NCBI RefSeq assembly: GCF_008326305.1
Contig: NZ_BIXY01000040.1
Coordinates: forward strand, 1 to 57,198
From: Dictyobacter arantiisoli
GTDB lineage: Bacteria > Chloroflexota > Ktedonobacteria > Ktedonobacterales > Ktedonobacteraceae
Length of the DNA: 57,198 bases
Direction of reading: 5' to 3'
The notes under the pieces were generated by a model, which was given only the letters and a program-made list of their open reading frames with translations, did no database searches and was not told where the DNA came from. Shown one piece after another: positions 297 to 22,736 of this stretch. Each line of letters starts with the position of its first letter. Position 1 is the stretch's first letter. Both the position numbers and the translations under genes were made by a program.

Positions 297-1496
297 CTAA
301 TACTCCTCGGATACAGTGAGAGTGCCATTGGAGACGCGATAGCGTCGAAAGCGGCGCGCCAGTTCATCGGGAAAACCTTCGAGTTCAGTCGCGGTCAACA
401 GGACCTGTTGATATGAGGCAATCTGGCAGAGAAGATATTCTCTACGCTGAGCATCCAGTTCGCTGAAGACATCATCGAGGAGAAGGATCGGTTGGTCACC
501 GGTAGTATTATGCATAAAAGCTAATTCTGACAGTTTAGCGGCCAGGGCAGCGGTGCGCTGCTGGCCCCGCGAGCCATAGGAGAGCATATTGACGCCATTG
601 ACGCGAAATTCCAGATCATCACGATGAGGGCCACGCAAGCAAACCCCCTGATAAATCTCTTTTTTACGCACCGCATGTAGCTGCTCCATGTAATGTCCAG
701 GCGCTTCCAGGGGATTCCAGTCAACATCGACCTGGAATGAAGGATGGTAGATGATACGCAATTCTTCCCGCCCACCACTGATCGCCTGCTGGAACTGATT
801 GGCCTGCTCATTGAGCGCCTTAACCATCCGCACACGCTCATAGATGATCTGATTGGCGAGCTGCACCAATTGCTCATCCAGATAGTTCAACATCTGTGGA
901 TCTTCTTGATTTTCACGCACACGTTTCAGTAACGCTGAACGCTGGGTGACAAGCTTGCGATATTTGATGAGGGCAACGCTATAGAGCGGTCGCACCTGGC
1001 ATAAGGCCCGGTCCAAAAACTTACGCCGCTCCTCGGGGGCTCCATCCACCAGATGCAAGTCGGTAGGAGCAAACATCACCACTTTCATCTGTCCAATAAA
1101 ATCGACGGTTCGCTTGGGCGCGCCATTGACTTTATAGCGCTTGCGAGGCGCATGGGCAGGCAACTCAATGCTGCGGGCCGATGACGATGATCCAACCGTA
1201 GCGGGTATCAGTGCAGGTGAAGGGTCCAGCAAGGTAATCTCAAGTTGAGCCTGGCCTTCCTGCCGCTGCAACATCCCATCCAGATGCGCAACATGGGCTG
1301 GTGCCGACCAGCTAACAACCTCACGATCACTGGAGGCATGAAACGAGGTTCCTGTCGCAAGCATACTGACAGCTTCTAATAGATTGGTCTTACCCTGCGC
1401 ATTCTCCCCATGGAACAGGAACAAACCTGGTCCCAGGGATACCTCCAACTGCTCATAATTGCGAAAATCGGCCAAAGTGAGGCGAGAAAGATACAT
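297..1496 (-). CDS. recF: DNA replication/repair protein RecF
   Basis: RecF is an SMC-like ATPase that helps load RecA at single-strand gaps in the RecFOR pathway. The 399-residue product has the family's N-terminal opening and a Walker A motif GENAQGKT at residues 30-37. The ABC-type signature SYGSRGQQRTAALA is at 306-319 and Walker B ILLLDDVFSELD at 337-348. It is slightly longer than the usual 360-370 residues, mainly through a Ser/Ala-rich insertion near 92-115. It follows dnaN on the same strand with a gap of about 130 nt, the common dnaN-recF order, and ends before a strong hairpin at 191-249. dnaA and gyrB are not in view. Confidence 0.97.
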   Translation of the reverse strand: MYLSRLTLADFRNYEQLEVSLGPGLFLFHGENAQGKTNLLEAVSMLATGTSFHASSDREVVSWSAPAHVAHLDGMLQRQEGQAQLEITLLDPSPALIPATVGSSSSARSIELPAHAPRKRYKVNGAPKRTVDFIGQMKVVMFAPTDLHLVDGAPEERRKFLDRALCQVRPLYSVALIKYRKLVTQRSALLKRVRENQEDPQMLNYLDEQLVQLANQIIYERVRMVKALNEQANQFQQAISGGREELRIIYHPSFQVDVDWNPLEAPGHYMEQLHAVRKKEIYQGVCLRGPHRDDLEFRVNGVNMLSYGSRGQQRTAALAAKLSELAFMHNTTGDQPILLLDDVFSELDAQRREYLLCQIASYQQVLLTATELEGFPDELARRFRRYRVSNGTLTVSEEY

Positions 1497-1628
1497 GCAC
1501 CCATCCGTGGAGAGAAAATTTGATCAACAATGAGAGAAAAAGGGCGAGGGTCTGCCTCGCCCTATAGAACTATTCTTAGTACCCACGCTAATCCAGGAAA
1601 TTGTATCCAGATGCAGGACCACACAATG

Positions 1629-2765
1629 CTAGCGATTGGTACTCATGGGCATAATGACATAGGTATAATCAGCGGCGCTGACAGGCTTTACGACACCAGG
1701 GCGAGCGGCAGAAGTGACTTCTAGCGCGACTTCAGGTGTGTCCAGAATGCTCAGGACATCGGTCAGATAGCGCACGTTGAAGATAATCTCTTGGTCCGGA
1801 CCATCCACAGCCGCATTAATTGTTGTGACGTTATTCCCAATATCTTCTGCCGTAGCTTCGAGGGTTAACGAACCAGCTTCAACACCATCGCCACCGCTCG
1901 AAATCTTAATGCGGGTAATATTGGAGCTATCGCGGGCAAATGGGGTAACGCGCTTCACAGCCGCTGCAAACTCTTTGGTCTCAATCACGGCACGTGTGGC
2001 ATGCTCGCGGGGAATAGCCGCTTTAATATTGGGAAACGTCCCTTCGATCAGGCGGGATACCAGATCAACATGCTCGGTATGGAAGAGCACCTGGCTGCGG
2101 TTGGGCGTTACGACCATCTGAACAGCTCCCTCGGAGGGTAAGATGCGCGCCAGTTCGCTCAGGGTACGGGCCGGGATCAAAATGGAGCTATGGCTGCTGA
2201 CATGTCCGGGCAAACCAGAGACACGTAAGGCCAGGCGGAAGGCATCCGCCGCCGCGAAAGAAACCTGCTCATTCGCCACCTCGACCAGCACACCCGTCAA
2301 AACGGGACGTGAGTCATCGTCAGCCGCCGCAAAGACGACCTGCGCGATCATATCTTTGAGCAAGTTGGCATCCAGCAGGATGGGCTCCTCATCGCCTTCT
2401 GCACTGGGGATCAGAGGAAATTCCGAAGGGTCCATGCCTTTAATATTGGCATTGCTTCCAGGACTCTTCACATTCACATCATAAGAGTCTTCAGCCACCG
2501 TCAGCTCTACCTGATCCTGGCGTAAGCTGCTCACCAGATCAATAAATGTCTTCGCAGGCACCGTTGTGGTGCCATTTTCGATGATCTCAGCATCAATCAG
2601 ACAATTAATACCAATTTCCAGATTTGTCGCAGAGAGCTTCAGGCTCCCCTGCTCAGTTGACAATAAAATATTTGCCAGGATTGGGAGCGTGCTCCGGCTT
2701 GAGACTGCATGACTCACTGTAGAGAGACCACGGCTCAAATCCTGTTGCTTACATTTGATTTTCAC
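1629..2765 (-). CDS. dnaN: DNA polymerase III subunit beta (sliding clamp)
   Basis: The product is the ring-shaped clamp that tethers the replicative polymerase to DNA. It shows the three-domain DnaN sequence, from KCKQQDLSRGL near the N terminus to the C-terminal VKPVSAADYTYVIMPM, which is the family's conserved end. I prefer the GTG start at 2765 (378 residues) because GGAGGAA lies 8 nt upstream. An in-frame TTG at 2792 would add nine residues but has no Shine-Dalgarno site. A promoter candidate at 2813-2842 places the transcript start about 40 nt before the GTG. recF follows downstream on the same strand. Confidence 0.96.
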   Translation of the reverse strand: MKIKCKQQDLSRGLSTVSHAVSSRSTLPILANILLSTEQGSLKLSATNLEIGINCLIDAEIIENGTTTVPAKTFIDLVSSLRQDQVELTVAEDSYDVNVKSPGSNANIKGMDPSEFPLIPSAEGDEEPILLDANLLKDMIAQVVFAAADDDSRPVLTGVLVEVANEQVSFAAADAFRLALRVSGLPGHVSSHSSILIPARTLSELARILPSEGAVQMVVTPNRSQVLFHTEHVDLVSRLIEGTFPNIKAAIPREHATRAVIETKEFAAAVKRVTPFARDSSNITRIKISSGGDGVEAGSLTLEATAEDIGNNVTTINAAVDGPDQEIIFNVRYLTDVLSILDTPEVALEVTSAARPGVVKPVSAADYTYVIMPMSTNR

Positions 2766-2812
2766 GAAAGATGTTCCTCCAGACACAACCAAAACGCAGA
2801 CTTTTCCACGTT

Positions 2813-2842
2813 AGTATAGCGCATGTTGATCTCGATTGTAAA
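2813..2842 (-). promoter_or_regulatory. Sigma70-type promoter of dnaN
   Basis: On the minus strand, TTTACA (2842-2837) is separated by 18 nt from TATACT (2818-2813). The expected transcript start is about 40 nt upstream of the dnaN GTG. Confidence 0.55.
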
Positions 2843-3249
2843 CGCGAGCGCGCCAAGTCATACCTACTCTTTTTATAGTACCTCATATGACCTACTACCT
2901 GCATCTTCACGCAAGGCGCTCCTTTCAAAAGCGGCATGATGGGCTGGACGATGAAGGATAACAGAGGGAGCGAGGACGTAGTCCTTGATCTGAGGTGTGA
3001 AGCGCTGTCCTGCGTTTTTCGTTTATGCACGCATTCCCTCTTTGCAATCCTGTTCTGATAGGAAAATAAAAAAGAACCATAGTCCTACTCTAAACGCAAA
3101 TTGGAGGACGGAAACATACACACCATGTCACGTAGTGCTATAATACACTTATCTGCGCAGAGAGGCCCATACACTTACGCTCTGGATGAGTCCAGGGGGC
3201 CATCACTGTATGCCATGTTGTTTTTGAGAGACGAGGGGATGATGCTTCC
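2843..3249. other. Intergenic region between divergent dnaN and receiver/plsX operons
   Basis: Apart from the dnaN promoter and the extended -10 box at 3136-3144, I see no gene here. There is no cluster of DnaA boxes, so I do not call an origin despite the neighbouring dnaN and recF. The short reading frames crossing it lack ribosome sites and family features. Confidence 0.5.
3136..3144 (+). promoter_or_regulatory. Extended -10 promoter element before receiver/plsX
   Basis: TGCTATAAT is a perfect extended -10 box about 105 nt upstream of the receiver gene. No good -35 hexamer is at the expected spacing, which fits an extended -10 promoter. Confidence 0.5.
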
Positions 3250-3636
3250 ATGGCCAAAAAAATTCTTATAATGGACGATGATCCAACAATCGCTGATCTT
3301 CTCACCGAAGCCCTGGCAGACGAGGGATATGAGACATTTATGACTACCCAGAGTCTGCGCTTCTATGACGCGGTTCGTGAACACCAACCCGACCTTGTCA
3401 TGCTCGATCTTATGATGCCCTATCTGGATGGGCGTGATGAACTCAAATTGATGGCAATGGCGGTTGAACGTCAGGTGCCGGTAATTGTCGTAACCGCCTT
3501 CCTGAGTGCTAGCAACGAAGAGCAAGCCTTCCGCGAAGCCGGTGTAGTGCATATCGTCTATAAACCATTTGACCTCGACAAGCTGGTAGAGCTGGTCAAA
3601 GAAACTATCGGAGAGCCGGAGGGAAGAAAAGCATGA
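3250..3636 (+). CDS. Single-domain response regulator (CheY-like receiver)
   Basis: The 128-residue protein is a stand-alone receiver with no output domain. The acidic pocket is MDDDP at residues 8-12, the phospho-acceptor is D53 in MLDLMMP, the switch threonine is T82, and the conserved lysine is K105 in YKPF. It should take a phosphoryl group from an unseen histidine kinase and act through protein contacts. Its stop codon overlaps the plsX start (ATGA, 3633-3636), so the two are translationally coupled. Its partner and any link to phospholipid synthesis are unknown. Confidence 0.88.
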   Translation: MAKKILIMDDDPTIADLLTEALADEGYETFMTTQSLRFYDAVREHQPDLVMLDLMMPYLDGRDELKLMAMAVERQVPVIVVTAFLSASNEEQAFREAGVVHIVYKPFDLDKLVELVKETIGEPEGRKA

Positions 3637-4712
3637 GTGCTTCCGAAAGTGCTCCTATTCGCGTGGCCCTTGATGCAATGGGTGGCGATAAAGCACCTGG
3701 TGAGATCGTTTTAGGCGCGGTACAGGCGGCCCGTGAATATGGCATCGGGGTCTATCTGGTTGGACGGGAAGAGGCCATTCGCGCCGAACTCGCGAAACAT
3801 GATACCACGGGACTCGATCTGCCTATCATCCATACAGATGAAGTTATTGAAATGGATGATCATCCAGCTACTGCTGTCCGACGCAAGAAAAACGCATCGA
3901 TGGTGCTGGCATTACAACTGGTACGCGATGGGAAGGCACTGGGAGCAGTCTCGGCTGGCAATAGTGGCGCGATGATGGCGGCATCCCTCTTTACCCTTAA
4001 GCGTATCCCGGGTGTGGATAGACCCGCCCTTGGTGGTGTCTTTGCGACGAAAAATAGCCCCTGTATGGTTATCGATATGGGAGCAAACACGGACTGCAAA
4101 CCTGAATATTTACAACAATTTGCCCTGATGGGCTCTATTTATATGGAGCGCATCTTCAAGATTTCCTCGCCTCGTGTCGGGCTCCTGGCGAATGGCGAAG
4201 AAGAGACCAAAGGCAATCAGCAAGTCATCGAAACTCACCAATTGCTGAAAAAAGATGCGGCTCTGTTAGGCCTCAATTTTATTGGCAATGTCGAGGGACG
4301 CGACATCCCTGCTGACGCCGTCGATATCGTGGTCTGTGATGGCTTTGTCGGCAACATTGTACTCAAATTGAGTGAAGGACTGGCCGAGACAATCCTGGGA
4401 TTGATACGCGAACAAATGACCAGTACCATCTGGGCCAAACTGGCTGCGGCAGTCCTCAAACCACGTTTGCGCAAAGTTTTTAAGAAACTAGACTATGCTG
4501 AATATGGCGGTGTGCCACTGCTAGGAGTCAATGGATCGGCGATCATTTCACACGGACGCTCCAATGCCAAGGCCATCAAAAATGCTATCCGCGTGGCCCG
4601 TCAGACAGCTGAAACAGGCGTAGCCGAGGCTATTGCTGAAGGATTGGCAAAATTGGAAAAGGACAGGCCAGCGTCCGCACAGGCAGAAAAGATGCCACAA
4701 ACAGAAGCCTGA
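3633..4712 (+). CDS. plsX: Phosphate acyltransferase PlsX
   Basis: PlsX converts acyl-ACP and phosphate into acyl-phosphate, the acyl donor for PlsY in the first step of phospholipid synthesis. It acts as a peripheral membrane enzyme. The 359-residue sequence shows the family opening VALDAMGGDKAPGEIV, the ADHPATAVRRKK-like segment, VSAGNSGAMMA, and ANGEEETKGN in the middle. The C-terminal stretch YGGVPLLGVNGSAIISHG is also typical. It overlaps the upstream receiver gene by 4 nt and ends before a shared bidirectional hairpin. The usual neighbours fabH, fabD, acpP and rpmF are absent. Confidence 0.97.
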   Translation: MSASESAPIRVALDAMGGDKAPGEIVLGAVQAAREYGIGVYLVGREEAIRAELAKHDTTGLDLPIIHTDEVIEMDDHPATAVRRKKNASMVLALQLVRDGKALGAVSAGNSGAMMAASLFTLKRIPGVDRPALGGVFATKNSPCMVIDMGANTDCKPEYLQQFALMGSIYMERIFKISSPRVGLLANGEEETKGNQQVIETHQLLKKDAALLGLNFIGNVEGRDIPADAVDIVVCDGFVGNIVLKLSEGLAETILGLIREQMTSTIWAKLAAAVLKPRLRKVFKKLDYAEYGGVPLLGVNGSAIISHGRSNAKAIKNAIRVARQTAETGVAEAIAEGLAKLEKDRPASAQAEKMPQTEA

Positions 4713-6876: not shown

Positions 6877-7809
6877 CTAGGCAGCCATGACTTTGCGCTG
6901 GATAAGGCGACCAATTGAGCGTGAACCAATATTGATAACCAGTAAAATGATAATGAGCAACGCTGCTGATCCCGCTGAAACAGCATTCGCAACATTGTCA
7001 GGAATAGTTCCAGCACCAACGGTCTTTAAATACCAGATATGAATGGTCAGGTTATCTGTACTGATCATGGGATTCAAAGTATAGACGTTGGAGGGATTGG
7101 ATGAGCCCATCGTGAAAATGAGGGCCGCCGCCTCCGCGATGACTTTACCTGCCGAGAGGACGATGCCGGTGATGATACCGGGCAGCGACGATGGCAGTAC
7201 CACGGTCCGAATCATATGCCATTTGGTTGAACCCAACGCCAATCCGCCTTCACGTTGCTCACGTGCAACGGAGGTCAGGGCGTCTTCAAACAGGCGCAAC
7301 GCCACAGGAAAGTTCAGGCAAAGCAGAGTTAAAGTACCGGTCAGGCGTGTCAGGCCCAGATGTAAGACAGTGGCGAAAACCAGATAGCCAAACAGGCCCA
7401 GTACCAGCGATGGAACACCGGCCAGTGTCTCAGCCGCGAAATGGATCACCGTCACTAATGGCCCCTGGCGCGCATATTCCACCAGGTAGATCGCCGCTGC
7501 CAGTGCAATCGGCACCAGAATGATCTCAGAGAGAATCAGCAAGTAAAGGGTATTAAAGATCTGCTGACCCACGGTCCCCGTACCAGTGCTGCCATAAAAG
7601 TCTGGATTGATAAGATAGGGAATACCATCCCAGAGAACCTTGATCACGATGAGAATAAACAGCAGTGCGCCCAGGAGCGTGATTAACGCGAGAATGCCAC
7701 TGGCAATATTGTTTTTGAGATGGAGCCGCTGCGTCAGACGCTCTAACGACAGTAAGCGCTGCCTCTCATCACTCTCAACAGAAGTCGAGATCTGTTGCTG
7801 AGCACTCAT
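6877..7809 (-). CDS. pstA: Phosphate ABC transporter permease PstA
   Basis: PstA forms half of the membrane channel for phosphate import. The 310-residue protein has about six hydrophobic segments. The EAA-type cytoplasmic loop lies around ALGSTKWHMIRTVVLPSSLPG, and IAEAAALIFTMG follows as in the PstA family. Its ATG overlaps the pstC stop (7806-7809), showing translational coupling. The N-terminal ~35 residues are hydrophilic and charged. Confidence 0.95.
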   Translation of the reverse strand: MSAQQQISTSVESDERQRLLSLERLTQRLHLKNNIASGILALITLLGALLFILIVIKVLWDGIPYLINPDFYGSTGTGTVGQQIFNTLYLLILSEIILVPIALAAAIYLVEYARQGPLVTVIHFAAETLAGVPSLVLGLFGYLVFATVLHLGLTRLTGTLTLLCLNFPVALRLFEDALTSVAREQREGGLALGSTKWHMIRTVVLPSSLPGIITGIVLSAGKVIAEAAALIFTMGSSNPSNVYTLNPMISTDNLTIHIWYLKTVGAGTIPDNVANAVSAGSAALLIIILLVINIGSRSIGRLIQRKVMAA

Positions 7810-20180: not shown

Positions 20181-21353
20181 ATGGATACATTTTACAATCG
20201 TATTGCGCGCTACACCCGTTTATTCTCTTATGTGGTGCTTGCGATGACATTCCTTGCTCTCATAGTTTTTATTGGACAGTCCCATGCAGATACAGTTGCC
20301 CTTGGACAGAATGGACAGTCTGCCCCGCCTGCAAACAATGGTGGTGCTGGTACTTGCAAATCAATGTACGTCAACAATCTTGCCCTGGCGGCAGGACAAT
20401 CGGCCAACAATAGGATCTATGGTGAGTTATGTAATCCTCGTTATGGGGCCAGCCAGACGGTTGAGCTACTGGTTGCAGGCCTTACATACGACTATCAGTA
20501 TTGGGATTGGCCAAGTACCTCTCAGAATCCACAGGGGTCTCAAGACTATTCGGCTGTACGATATTTTACTGGCTATTACAATCCCGCCGGTATTGGCTAT
20601 AGCACATTCAGTATTGATCGCATTGGGATCGGTCTGAGTTCACATCCTGTGAGCACTGATGTTAATCTGGCTTCGAATACCTATATCCTGCATCAGATTG
20701 TATCCCGATTAAAAGCTGGTCTCATTGGTAACACCAAATTCCATCGTGTACTCCTGATTGGTCACTCTTTTGGTTCCCGTGTCTCCCTTACAGAGGCTGC
20801 AACCTATCACGATGTGAATGGCGTTGTGCTTACTGGTGCACTGCATGATCAGAATCCCAATGTAACGACGATCGCTCCCGCTATAGAGGCTAGCTCTGAT
20901 CCCGCTTTTGCCAGCATGAATCTAGACTCCGGTTACCTTACTAATGGACCAGGTTCTATCCAGGCAGCGTTCTACTATAAGCCTGGTACATACAGCGATG
21001 CGAACGTCATTGCGTACAATAATCAGATCAAGCAAACGATGACCGTATCAGAGTTGGTCAACCTTAAAGCTGCACTCACAAGTACTCTCTCAAGGCAGAT
21101 CAATGTGCCGGTTCTGTTAGTCGTAGGACAAGAGGACTTGCTTTCCTGCGTCGATGCGGTGAATTGCTCAAGCTCTGCGACGGTCTATCAAGAGGAGGCT
21201 TCTTTCTACTCACCACAGGCCCAGTTGCAAGTGCGTGTTATTCCGAATACAGGCCATGACCTGAACCTGCATTATTCAGCACATACAACCTATGCAACAA
21301 TTATGCGGTGGGCACTGGCACACGTTGCTCCCCGTAGTGATCTGGATGCTTGA
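20181..21353 (+). CDS. Secreted alpha/beta hydrolase
   Basis: The product of about 390 residues has a signal peptide: basic start, hydrophobic core at about 14-31, and a likely cleavage after QSHA at residue 36. The nucleophile elbow is GHSFGS with S196. The acid is probably in VVGQEDLLS and the histidine in NTGHDLN. Several cysteines (such as C59, C84 and a pair near SCVDAVNCS) suggest disulfides outside the cell. It may be a lipase or esterase, but the substrate cannot be assigned. The frame opens with TTG at 20154; ATG 20181 starts the signal peptide and is preferred. The region upstream is A/T-rich. Confidence 0.82.
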   Translation: MDTFYNRIARYTRLFSYVVLAMTFLALIVFIGQSHADTVALGQNGQSAPPANNGGAGTCKSMYVNNLALAAGQSANNRIYGELCNPRYGASQTVELLVAGLTYDYQYWDWPSTSQNPQGSQDYSAVRYFTGYYNPAGIGYSTFSIDRIGIGLSSHPVSTDVNLASNTYILHQIVSRLKAGLIGNTKFHRVLLIGHSFGSRVSLTEAATYHDVNGVVLTGALHDQNPNVTTIAPAIEASSDPAFASMNLDSGYLTNGPGSIQAAFYYKPGTYSDANVIAYNNQIKQTMTVSELVNLKAALTSTLSRQINVPVLLVVGQEDLLSCVDAVNCSSSATVYQEEASFYSPQAQLQVRVIPNTGHDLNLHYSAHTTYATIMRWALAHVAPRSDLDA

Positions 21354-21521
21354 TGTAAGCCTGTGACTCCCATGGGATGCGTAACGAGATGAATGCAAAC
21401 AAGATGTATCGTGCAATGCGGCTTCTGAAGTCATCTTGATCATAGCACTTGCTTGTGGCAATAGGATGGGCAATGGTCTAGGGCCACTTCCTTTGATCGT
21501 GCATTTCGTTGCTCATTCCGT

Positions 21522-22179
21522 GTGCGCCGTGTCGCGCTTGATTGTATCCCTGGTGCAACCAGGAAGTACTCAGAAGGAGGTACTTGGATCACCCAACCTA
21601 CCTGGATCCGAAAGGTGAAGGGGAAAATAGCATGTTGTGGAGTGCGGCGATCAGCTGAAGATATGTAGGCTGATGAGCTGCAAGATCCGCGCACTATGGC
21701 GAGAGCTAGACTGCCCAAAGCCCAATTCTTAGAGGAGTATGCGCACTCCCATCGACATCATATCTGAAGTCGATGCCATCCTGAACAGAGATTGCCACGG
21801 GAGATCACTGTTCCTTCTGCTGGATGGACGATGGCCAATGAGGTCATTAAAAGGAATGAGAGGCTGCCTACGGTGCGCTCGATACGTACAGTCAGGACGA
21901 AACACGGGATGCCCTAAAAGGCGCGAGCCTCATGGGCACGGAGCGGTCATAGTAGTCAGACCTGGGGAAAGCCCAGGACAAGGCGAAGGGCCGCAGGATG
22001 GACGGAAGCCAGCCGGGAGGCGTGCGAGATGCACGAAAGCCAAAACGGTGTCACTTCCAGCCGCCATCAGGCGGAAATCCATCTGGAAAGCCACGTGCAT
22101 GGAAAGCGTGCATGCGTGGTTTGGGGAAGGGCGGATGGAAAAGGGTCTGAAAAGATACCTCGCCAGCCGCCTATTCCAC
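21522..22179 (+). mobile_element. ORF-less group II intron (658 nt)
   Basis: The element begins GTGCGCC, the group II 5' consensus. The upstream exon TTCCGT (IBS1, 21516-21521) pairs with ACGGGA (EBS1, 21797-21802), with one G-U pair, in the loop of a GAACAG/CTGTTC stem. GCTCA (IBS2, 21511-21515) pairs with TGAGC (EBS2, 21674-21678). Domain IV is only a short stem (21994-22002 with 22078-22085), leaving no room for a reverse transcriptase. Domain V (22088-22122) has the AGC triad opposite GTT, a two-nt bulge and a GAAA-type cap. Domain VI has a bulged A at 22173 and the intron ends CCTATTCCAC. The stretch 21934-21996 recalls domains II-III of the lactococcal LtrB intron. Splicing or mobility would need a protein encoded elsewhere. 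Confidence 0.85.
22088..22179 (+). ncRNA. Group II intron domains V and VI
   Basis: Domain V: lower helix 22088-22096 with 22114-22122, containing A22089-G22090-C22091 opposite T22121-T22120-G22119. The bulge is A22112-T22113, and the upper helix is 22097-22101 with 22107-22111. The loop is GAAAG, one base longer than the usual tetraloop. Domain VI: GGAAG-GGCGG (22125-22134) pairs with CCGCC-T and TTCC (22167-22177), leaving A22173 unpaired six nt before the 3' end. Confidence 0.85.
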
Positions 22180-22311
22180 GGGAACAGGTGCGACGTGGGA
22201 TGCACTATTCCTGTGCATGGCTGAATTGACGTTTGGCTGGAACTATTCGACGCTTGTCGCTCTGGCTGAACATTCCAGTTAGCCGTCCCTCCTCCAGCGG
22301 CTCGAAAACAC

Positions 22312-22344
22312 AAAAAAGAGCCATCATGACGATGACTCTTTTTA
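22312..22344 (-). terminator. tRNA-Asn terminator
   Basis: On the minus strand an A-run, GAG-CATC stem with two mismatches and a T-run lie 5 nt after the tRNA 3' end. The structure is a typical intrinsic terminator. Confidence 0.75.
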
Positions 22345-22348
22345 AAAA

Positions 22349-22420
22349 CTCCTTGGGTAGGATTCGAACCTACAACCAATCGGTTAACAGCCGATTGCTC
22401 TACCGTTGAGCTATCAAGGA
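22349..22420 (-). tRNA. tRNA-Asn (anticodon GTT)
   Basis: A 72-nt cloverleaf can be drawn. The acceptor TCCTTGA pairs with CCAAGGA, with an A-C mismatch at pair 7. The D arm is GCTC/GAGC, the anticodon arm ATCGG-CTGTTAA-CCGAT with anticodon GTT, a 5-nt variable loop follows, and the T arm is GTAGG-TTCGAAT-CCTAC. The discriminator is G and CCA is not encoded. It reads AAC/AAT. Confidence 0.95.
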
Positions 22421-22596: not shown

Positions 22597-22736
22597 GAAC
22601 ATAATATGAGTCATCCCGGATTTTGATACCGTTGGGAAACCCTGTTACGAAACATCTTTTGAGCGTACTCACTCCAAATAGATGAGCACCGCGCAAGGGT
22701 TTCCCAACGGTATCGGGGGATGACTCATATATGTTC
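22597..22736. repeat. Long foldback (about 140 nt)
   Basis: An inner perfect 19-bp stem (22625-22643 with 22696-22714) is stacked under an outer 20-bp stem with one bulge (22597-22617 with 22717-22736). The loop is about 50 nt. It lies downstream of priA on the minus strand and could terminate priA or be a miniature inverted-repeat element. From 22737 to 22839 I see only a short GGGGC/GCCCC hairpin. Confidence 0.65.

Follow-up and report, generated by a model that had tools for sequence, protein, structure and literature searches.

A compact ORF-less group II intron in the terminal inverted repeat of a MITE: comparative evidence from a Ktedonobacteria genome

By comparison with its relatives, a 658-nt stretch of a Ktedonobacteria genome (G000, a 7.2-Mb assembly split into 256 contigs) reads as a structurally intact group II intron of the group IIA, or mitochondrial-like (LtrB-like), class; it carries no maturase gene and, on the same kind of comparison, interrupts a MITE within the right one of its terminal inverted repeats. 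We use "the window" for the whole stretch of DNA analysed (57,198 nt). We regard as likely an explanation in which a group IIA intron that has lost its ORF sits in this repeat and is, as we propose, spliced and retrohomed by a maturase supplied in trans. ORF-less group II introns are already known as a kind of element; the target is what is unusual. The terminal repeat of a MITE/IS family appears to be an unusually clean target and one unreported within the literature searched, in which group II introns at the terminal repeats of transposons did not turn up, though such reports may exist elsewhere.

The intron and its domains lie on the plus strand as follows.
21522-22179, +: ORF-less group II intron, 658 nt, GTGCGCC...CAC (RF00029, homologous ends, covariation-supported fold)
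about 21522-21907, +: domain I (DI), covariation-supported fold
21910-21938, +: DII, covariation-supported fold
21943-21994, +: DIII, covariation-supported fold
about 21995-22085, +: DIV, about 90 nt
22088-22122, +: DV, covariation-supported fold
22125-22177, +: DVI, covariation-supported fold
22173, +: bulged branch-point A of DVI, 7 nt before the 3' end

Rfam models gave two matches over the whole window, a tRNA-Asn and RF00029 (group II DV-DVI); the latter, at 22086-22179 with 51.1 bits (gathering threshold 40), answers in the affirmative the domain V check proposed by an earlier, sequence-only reading of this DNA. The Rfam model D1D4-1 matches at 21912-21991 (DIII) with 24.5 bits (cut-off 35), appearing at permissive thresholds only. 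Of 29 family genomes covered by a DNA search, 19 gave copies of the intron. In most of these copies the local alignment begins with the first intron base (GTGCGCC), and the 3' end of a 660-nt copy in G016 (L088:3124-3783) matches base 658 (22179), so that the coordinates and both ends given by the sequence-only reading stand, as does its description of a compact ORF-less group II intron. Copies with mapped ends comprise six ORF-less ones of 642-739 nt and four distinct ORF-bearing ones of 2399-2441 nt. The termini read 5' GUGYG and 3' AY and are accompanied by EBS-IBS pairing. The 658-nt RNA folds 5.3 SD better than shuffles. Compensatory changes are seen at 108 of 130 pairs in DI-DIII (RNAalifold, 18 copies, a pair being counted if both sides change in at least one sequence) and at 24 of 32 pairs in DV-DVI (13 copies); kinship among the copies inflates these counts, but distinct pair types per position are still numerous. 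The catalytic AGC of DV is the same in 13/13 copies, and the bulged A of DVI and the AC 3' end, both noticed earlier in the letters, are borne out in the fold. Gene callers would report false proteins at this locus, for example at 21739-22224.

The intron's guide sequences were located by a covariation scan in which 28 copies were aligned and near-duplicates dropped, leaving 23; each intron position was compared with exon positions -6 to -1 or with windows further upstream, and exons shuffled among copies served as the null.
21516-21521, +: IBS1 TTCCGT, 6/6 pairs with EBS1, one of them G-U
21797-21802 (intron 276-281), +: EBS1 ACGGGA, covariation scan z=8.8
21510-21515, +: IBS2 TGCTCA, 5/6 pairs with EBS2 (the MITE consensus TGCGCA pairs 6/6)
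21740-21745 (intron 219-224), +: EBS2 TGCGCA, in the loop of a 4-5 bp hairpin, covariation scan z=9.5
21796, +: delta (C), pairing with delta-prime G22180

The six-pair IBS1-EBS1 match that had been proposed at 21797-21802 came out at the top of this unbiased scan as the best partner of IBS1, with 5.13/6 pairs against 2.6 expected and 0/5000 permutations as good. The earlier EBS2 fared differently: 21674-21678 does match 21511-21515 over five pairs in the letters, but it shows no covariation in several registers across the 23 copies (z=1.5; 427/5000 permutations as good) and was rejected, the best match for IBS2 (21510-21515) being 21740-21745 (0/5000 permutations). The base 5' of EBS1 forms a Watson-Crick pair with the first base of the 3' exon in 10/10 distinct copies for which both ends are known, which points to group IIA; delta-delta' is the signature of that group, for which recognition by EBS1/EBS2 together with delta-delta' is described (PMC3898094). 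We also considered a class C intron, a kind that inserts after terminators, because the 5' exon has inverted ends. It was rejected, since an EBS2 is present and the inverted ends belong to a transposon; the sole strong terminator serves tRNA-Asn and lies on the opposite strand, 130 nt downstream of the intron.

The surroundings of the intron contain the following features.
20181-21353, +: alpha/beta-hydrolase gene upstream of the intron (Pfam Abhydrolase_6; G007 homologue 91% identical)
21369-21521, +: MITE split by the intron: left end, body and right terminal repeat up to CCGT (homologous G007 copies)
22180-22182, +: GGG, the final three bases of the MITE right terminal repeat, 3' of the intron (uninterrupted copies; IS ends)
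22313-22343, -: terminator of tRNA-Asn
22349-22420, -: tRNA-Asn(GTT) (Rfam), on the strand opposite to the intron

The sequence-only reading had put the intron between a hydrolase gene and tRNA-Asn; the location is right, but the MITE, 3 bp inside the end of which the intron lies, was passed over. One G007 homologue of 21369-21521 (L128) is a MITE of 192 bp whose 23-nt terminal repeats are perfect (CCCACGGGATGCGCAACGAGATG / CATCTCGTTGCGCATCCCGTGGG), and further copies lie at L086 and L129. Uninterrupted copies read CATCCCGT-GGG, the empty site; in the window the right repeat reads CATTCCGT, followed by the intron and then by GGG, a split of CCGT|GGG. The earlier breakpoints of 21521/22180, set up to be checked against empty sites, thus agree with the paralogous MITE copies. 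No empty orthologous locus was found: the G007 hydrolase homologue keeps the left part of the MITE and is rearranged after 21462, and in other members of the genus the region around tRNA-Asn stops short of the intron site, so the empty site rests on the paralogs. No clear target duplication is visible around the MITE copy in the window, of which only GGG lies beyond the 3' end of the intron. A 2.3-kb IS that encodes a 693-aa putative transposase (a weak DDE_Tnp_1_6 match, below cut-off) is bounded by this terminal repeat as well, and autonomous copies of this IS in G008 end at the same GGG. Separately, 22605-22735 of the window, between tRNA-Asn and a downstream helicase-like gene, holds a long imperfect inverted repeat (GAGTCATCCC..GATACCGTTGGGAAACCC / GGGTTTCCCAACGGTATCGGGGGATGACTC) that resembles another MITE.

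Neither within DIV, which is about 90 nt long as had been read, nor next to the intron did we find a maturase or RT ORF. A sister copy in G007 (L087) is 84% identical over DI-DIII, and its RT ORF begins in DIV. DIV of the window copy retains GGGAGGCGTGCGAGATGCACGAAAGCC, which can be aligned to the ORF start of relatives (GGTACGTGAGATGCGTAATGCCG). Together, the ORF at the same point in L087 and this remnant indicate derivation from an ORF-bearing intron by deletion.
22029-22031, +: remnant start codon ATG, preceded by GGGAGG at 22015-22020
22022-22034, +: DIVa-like hairpin GUGC-GAGAU-GCAC, overlapping the remnant start codon; covaries

Other copies retain other pieces of the ORF: nine codons (MRSAETVLS) are left before DV in L097, and in L103 an N-terminal remnant is fused to a C-terminal HNH remnant. 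ORF-less and ORF-bearing copies are interleaved on a tree whose deeper branches are poorly supported, which suggests that the ORF was lost more than once. We rejected one candidate for the cognate full-length intron, on C166 (93% identical over the first 125 nt), since its RT belongs to a different intron; that RT is only 45% identical to the relevant IEP, and its host intron is apparently nested in the 5' fragment. At this locus (L031, own genome, C166), positions 1660-1803 hold a 5' fragment with 93% identity to the window intron; an intron that encodes an RT and starts GTGCGCCC apparently interrupts it, and the contig ends within the RT.

Dependence on a protein acting in trans is the best reading of four observations: no RT in or near the intron, ORF-start remnants in DIV, a conserved DIVa-like hairpin, and related full-length maturase genes elsewhere. 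Among 12 distinct ORF-less and ORF-bearing copies, 91.7% of hairpin cells are paired, with 13 double changes and 0/500 shuffles as good, the 13-mers having been aligned by a hand-picked register that makes the test somewhat favourable. In LtrB the corresponding DIV region is the primary LtrA-binding site. LtrA-like IEPs with RT, maturase and HNH domains are absent from the window copy and present in related introns of its own genome and genus. The sequence-only reading had proposed searching the genome for copies and for a matching maturase. Copies were found in family genomes, as described above; in the 256-contig assembly of the own genome we saw no maturase more than 66% identical to the IEP of the nearest ORF-bearing relative. 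That best match, the C181 maturase (592 aa, RT + maturase + HNH domains, 66% identical to the L087 IEP over 302 aa), aligns with LtrA over its full length at 404 bits, and the C1 maturase of the same genome (606 aa) is 60% identical to the L087 IEP. C181 would be the best candidate driver and C1 the second; we infer that one or the other may serve the window intron, and at only 66% identity the driver would need relaxed specificity.

The intron lies 168 nt from the hydrolase stop codon on the same strand, and would fall in the 3' untranslated region of that gene. A sigma-70-like promoter was sought near the intron and not found; with the intron 3' of the hydrolase on the same strand, transcription would come only by read-through. 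In the mechanism we propose, the RNA would be made by read-through of the hydrolase transcript, and the maturase of another intron would bind the retained DIVa-like hairpin and aid folding and splicing, leaving ligated exons ...GCTCATTCCGT-GGGAACAGG. The maturase would then carry the intron by retrohoming into TGCGCATCCCGT^GGG sites, which are transposon ends. Such an insertion would spare genes and cut the transposon from its terminal 3 bp.

One could instead suppose a relic, that is, a genuine and once mobile intron supplied in trans, now inactive for want of a matching maturase in the genome; we find this rather unlikely. Consistent with it, there is a single copy with these guides, the genome's nearest counterpart to the maturase of the closest ORF-bearing relative shares 66% identity with it, the host MITE end carries two substitutions against the consensus, and the DV loop has five bases (GAAAG) rather than four. 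Yet the five-base loop also occurs in the intact G016 copy, EBS1 still pairs 6/6 with its own exon, and the window copy forms 155 of 162 consensus pairs (125/130 in DI-DIII, 30/32 in DV-DVI), including the catalytic AGC pairs of DV, and keeps the branch A.

It is improbable that the match between guides and MITE is coincidental and reflects a chance ectopic insertion with no special relation to the transposon. EBS1 ACGGGA is the exact complement of the MITE consensus TCCCGT, and EBS2, EBS1 and delta together match the repeat consensus TGCGCA-TCCCGT^G at 13/13 positions; by chance, an exact match of 13 nt to the consensus end of this repeat, which is present in tens of copies, would arise at about 4^-13 per site. 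The L128 end gives a 12/12 EBS match and a C-G delta pair. Ends within two mismatches of the target number 22 in the window's genome and 70 in G007, against 0 for a reversed control pattern. In favour of coincidence, one occupied site is known: we detected no copy of the intron in any of the 22 near-copies of the repeat in its own genome, and found no second copy with the window intron's guides and no other occupied MITE or IS end. The local exon, with two substitutions relative to the consensus, also pairs slightly worse than the consensus does (11/12 with EBS2 and EBS1, plus delta). Against it stands the fact that close relatives sit at transposon ends too. Since the recognition letters match the end repeat exactly, the intron looks like a parasite of a DNA transposon that works with a borrowed protein.

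The nearest copies follow a different conserved exon, ...CTGGTGACAGCTTACGT. At L088 (G016 C1:199500-205500), two copies, at 1194-1633 (-) and 3124-3783 (+), face outwards from the two ends of a single element, which has inverted repeats at its interior ends and carries a 169-aa protein without a Pfam match. In G007, an empty 0.4-kb element has TCTGCCCCTGGTGACAGCTTACGT-AGCTATACCCC at both ends (element B ends TTACGT-AGC). The conserved exon, the outward-facing pair and the empty ends together indicate that close relatives home to another element's terminal repeat; the end sequence of element B hints that it may be a member of IS66. The guides of the window copy differ from those of the element-B relatives, and its lineage probably descends from relatives homing to TTACGT^AGC, with the host transposon switched by changed guide loops.

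Splicing with no protein, or with a host protein, would make an intron-encoded maturase unnecessary. The fold is complete, and self-splicing in vitro at high salt is established for some group II introns; we nonetheless think this quite improbable, because ORF-bearing relatives encode maturases and because ORF-less copies have retained the DIVa-like hairpin, with covariation, a sign that a protein may still bind it. That the element is no group II intron at all, merely a chance fold or a false protein gene, is refuted by covariation and homologous ends, finds no point in its favour and has next to no credibility.

Several relatives lie in nested or clustered arrangements. Three levels of nesting are seen at L087 (G007 C1:8724000-8730000, 1589-4583): in the outer, window-like intron, a second intron interrupts the RT ORF directly after the YADD codons; the EBS1 of this second intron pairs 6/6 with GATGAT, its RT ORF is likewise broken after YADD, and a third intron, with an Rfam D1D4-7 match, adjoins the broken ORF of the second. 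These introns appear to target RT active-site codons of other introns. At L104 (G015 C1:880500-884500, 1367-2260), a HEARO RNA (RF02033), from the family that provides IscB-type elements with guide RNAs, is followed after about 5 nt by the start of an ORF-less intron. Four DV-DVI matches within 2 kb at L138 (G014 C10:1918000-1921500) form an intron cluster or nest, and two in G000 (C134:6948-7037 and 7234-7322), 0.3 kb apart behind one RT gene, suggest a nested or tandem intron.

Known systems share parts of this arrangement. The group IIA intron Ll.LtrB has the same 5' GTGCGCC, EBS1/EBS2 with delta-delta', and a DIV hairpin around the ORF start; in contrast to Ll.LtrB/LtrA, the window copy has no ORF, its target is a transposon terminal repeat and its host belongs to Chloroflexota. 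The ORF-less TeI3 introns of Thermosynechococcus elongatus are driven by TeI4 maturases, with trans mobilisation assayed, and one family homes to the insertion element ISEL1 while others home into introns (PMC2882425). Like the window intron, they are compact, with the ORF deleted in DIV and good EBS/IBS pairing; N- and C-terminal ORF remnants persist in TeI3, an ORF-start remnant in the window copy. They differ in structural class (PMC2882425 names EcI5-like rather than LtrA-like IEP relatives) and in having a single ORF loss, whereas the ORF-less relatives of the window intron are scattered on a poorly resolved tree; here, moreover, the target is a terminal repeat and trans action is a proposal. 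RmInt1 of Sinorhizobium meliloti has as its natural target the high-copy ISRm2011-2, the spread of which it blocks (PMC5894124), but unlike the window intron it encodes its own maturase, inserts within ISRm2011-2 and is of group IIB. The archaeal ORF-less and nested introns of Dai and Zimmerly 2003 (cited in PMC3236041 and PMC8919778) resemble the window intron's relatives in having ORF-less copies beside RT-encoding ones that home into related intron ORFs; they are of another lineage, and the window copy itself is not nested. Ktedonobacter racemifer, of the same bacterial class as the window's host, has 34 group II RT/maturase/HNH genes in a count of RT genes alone (PMC3236041), and we found no paper in the literature searched that describes its ORF-less intron RNAs, guides or targets.

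Chloroflexota thus gains a fully mapped ORF-less group IIA intron, each of whose recognition elements has covariation support, and transposon ends emerge as a possible home for such introns: a safe, abundant and non-genic target. Intron retargeting and shared maturases are steps thought to precede a common splicing machinery, and copies with and without an ORF, at two or more target transposons, offer a natural system for the study of retargeting and of one maturase serving several introns. We tentatively entertain, as a possibility that falls somewhat short of even, a Ktedonobacteria group IIA lineage specialised on the terminal inverted repeats of DNA transposons and MITEs, which would retarget by rewriting its guide loops, repeatedly shed its maturase genes and exploit the maturases of other introns. 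If this is true, transposons bear immobilising RNA parasites at their ends.
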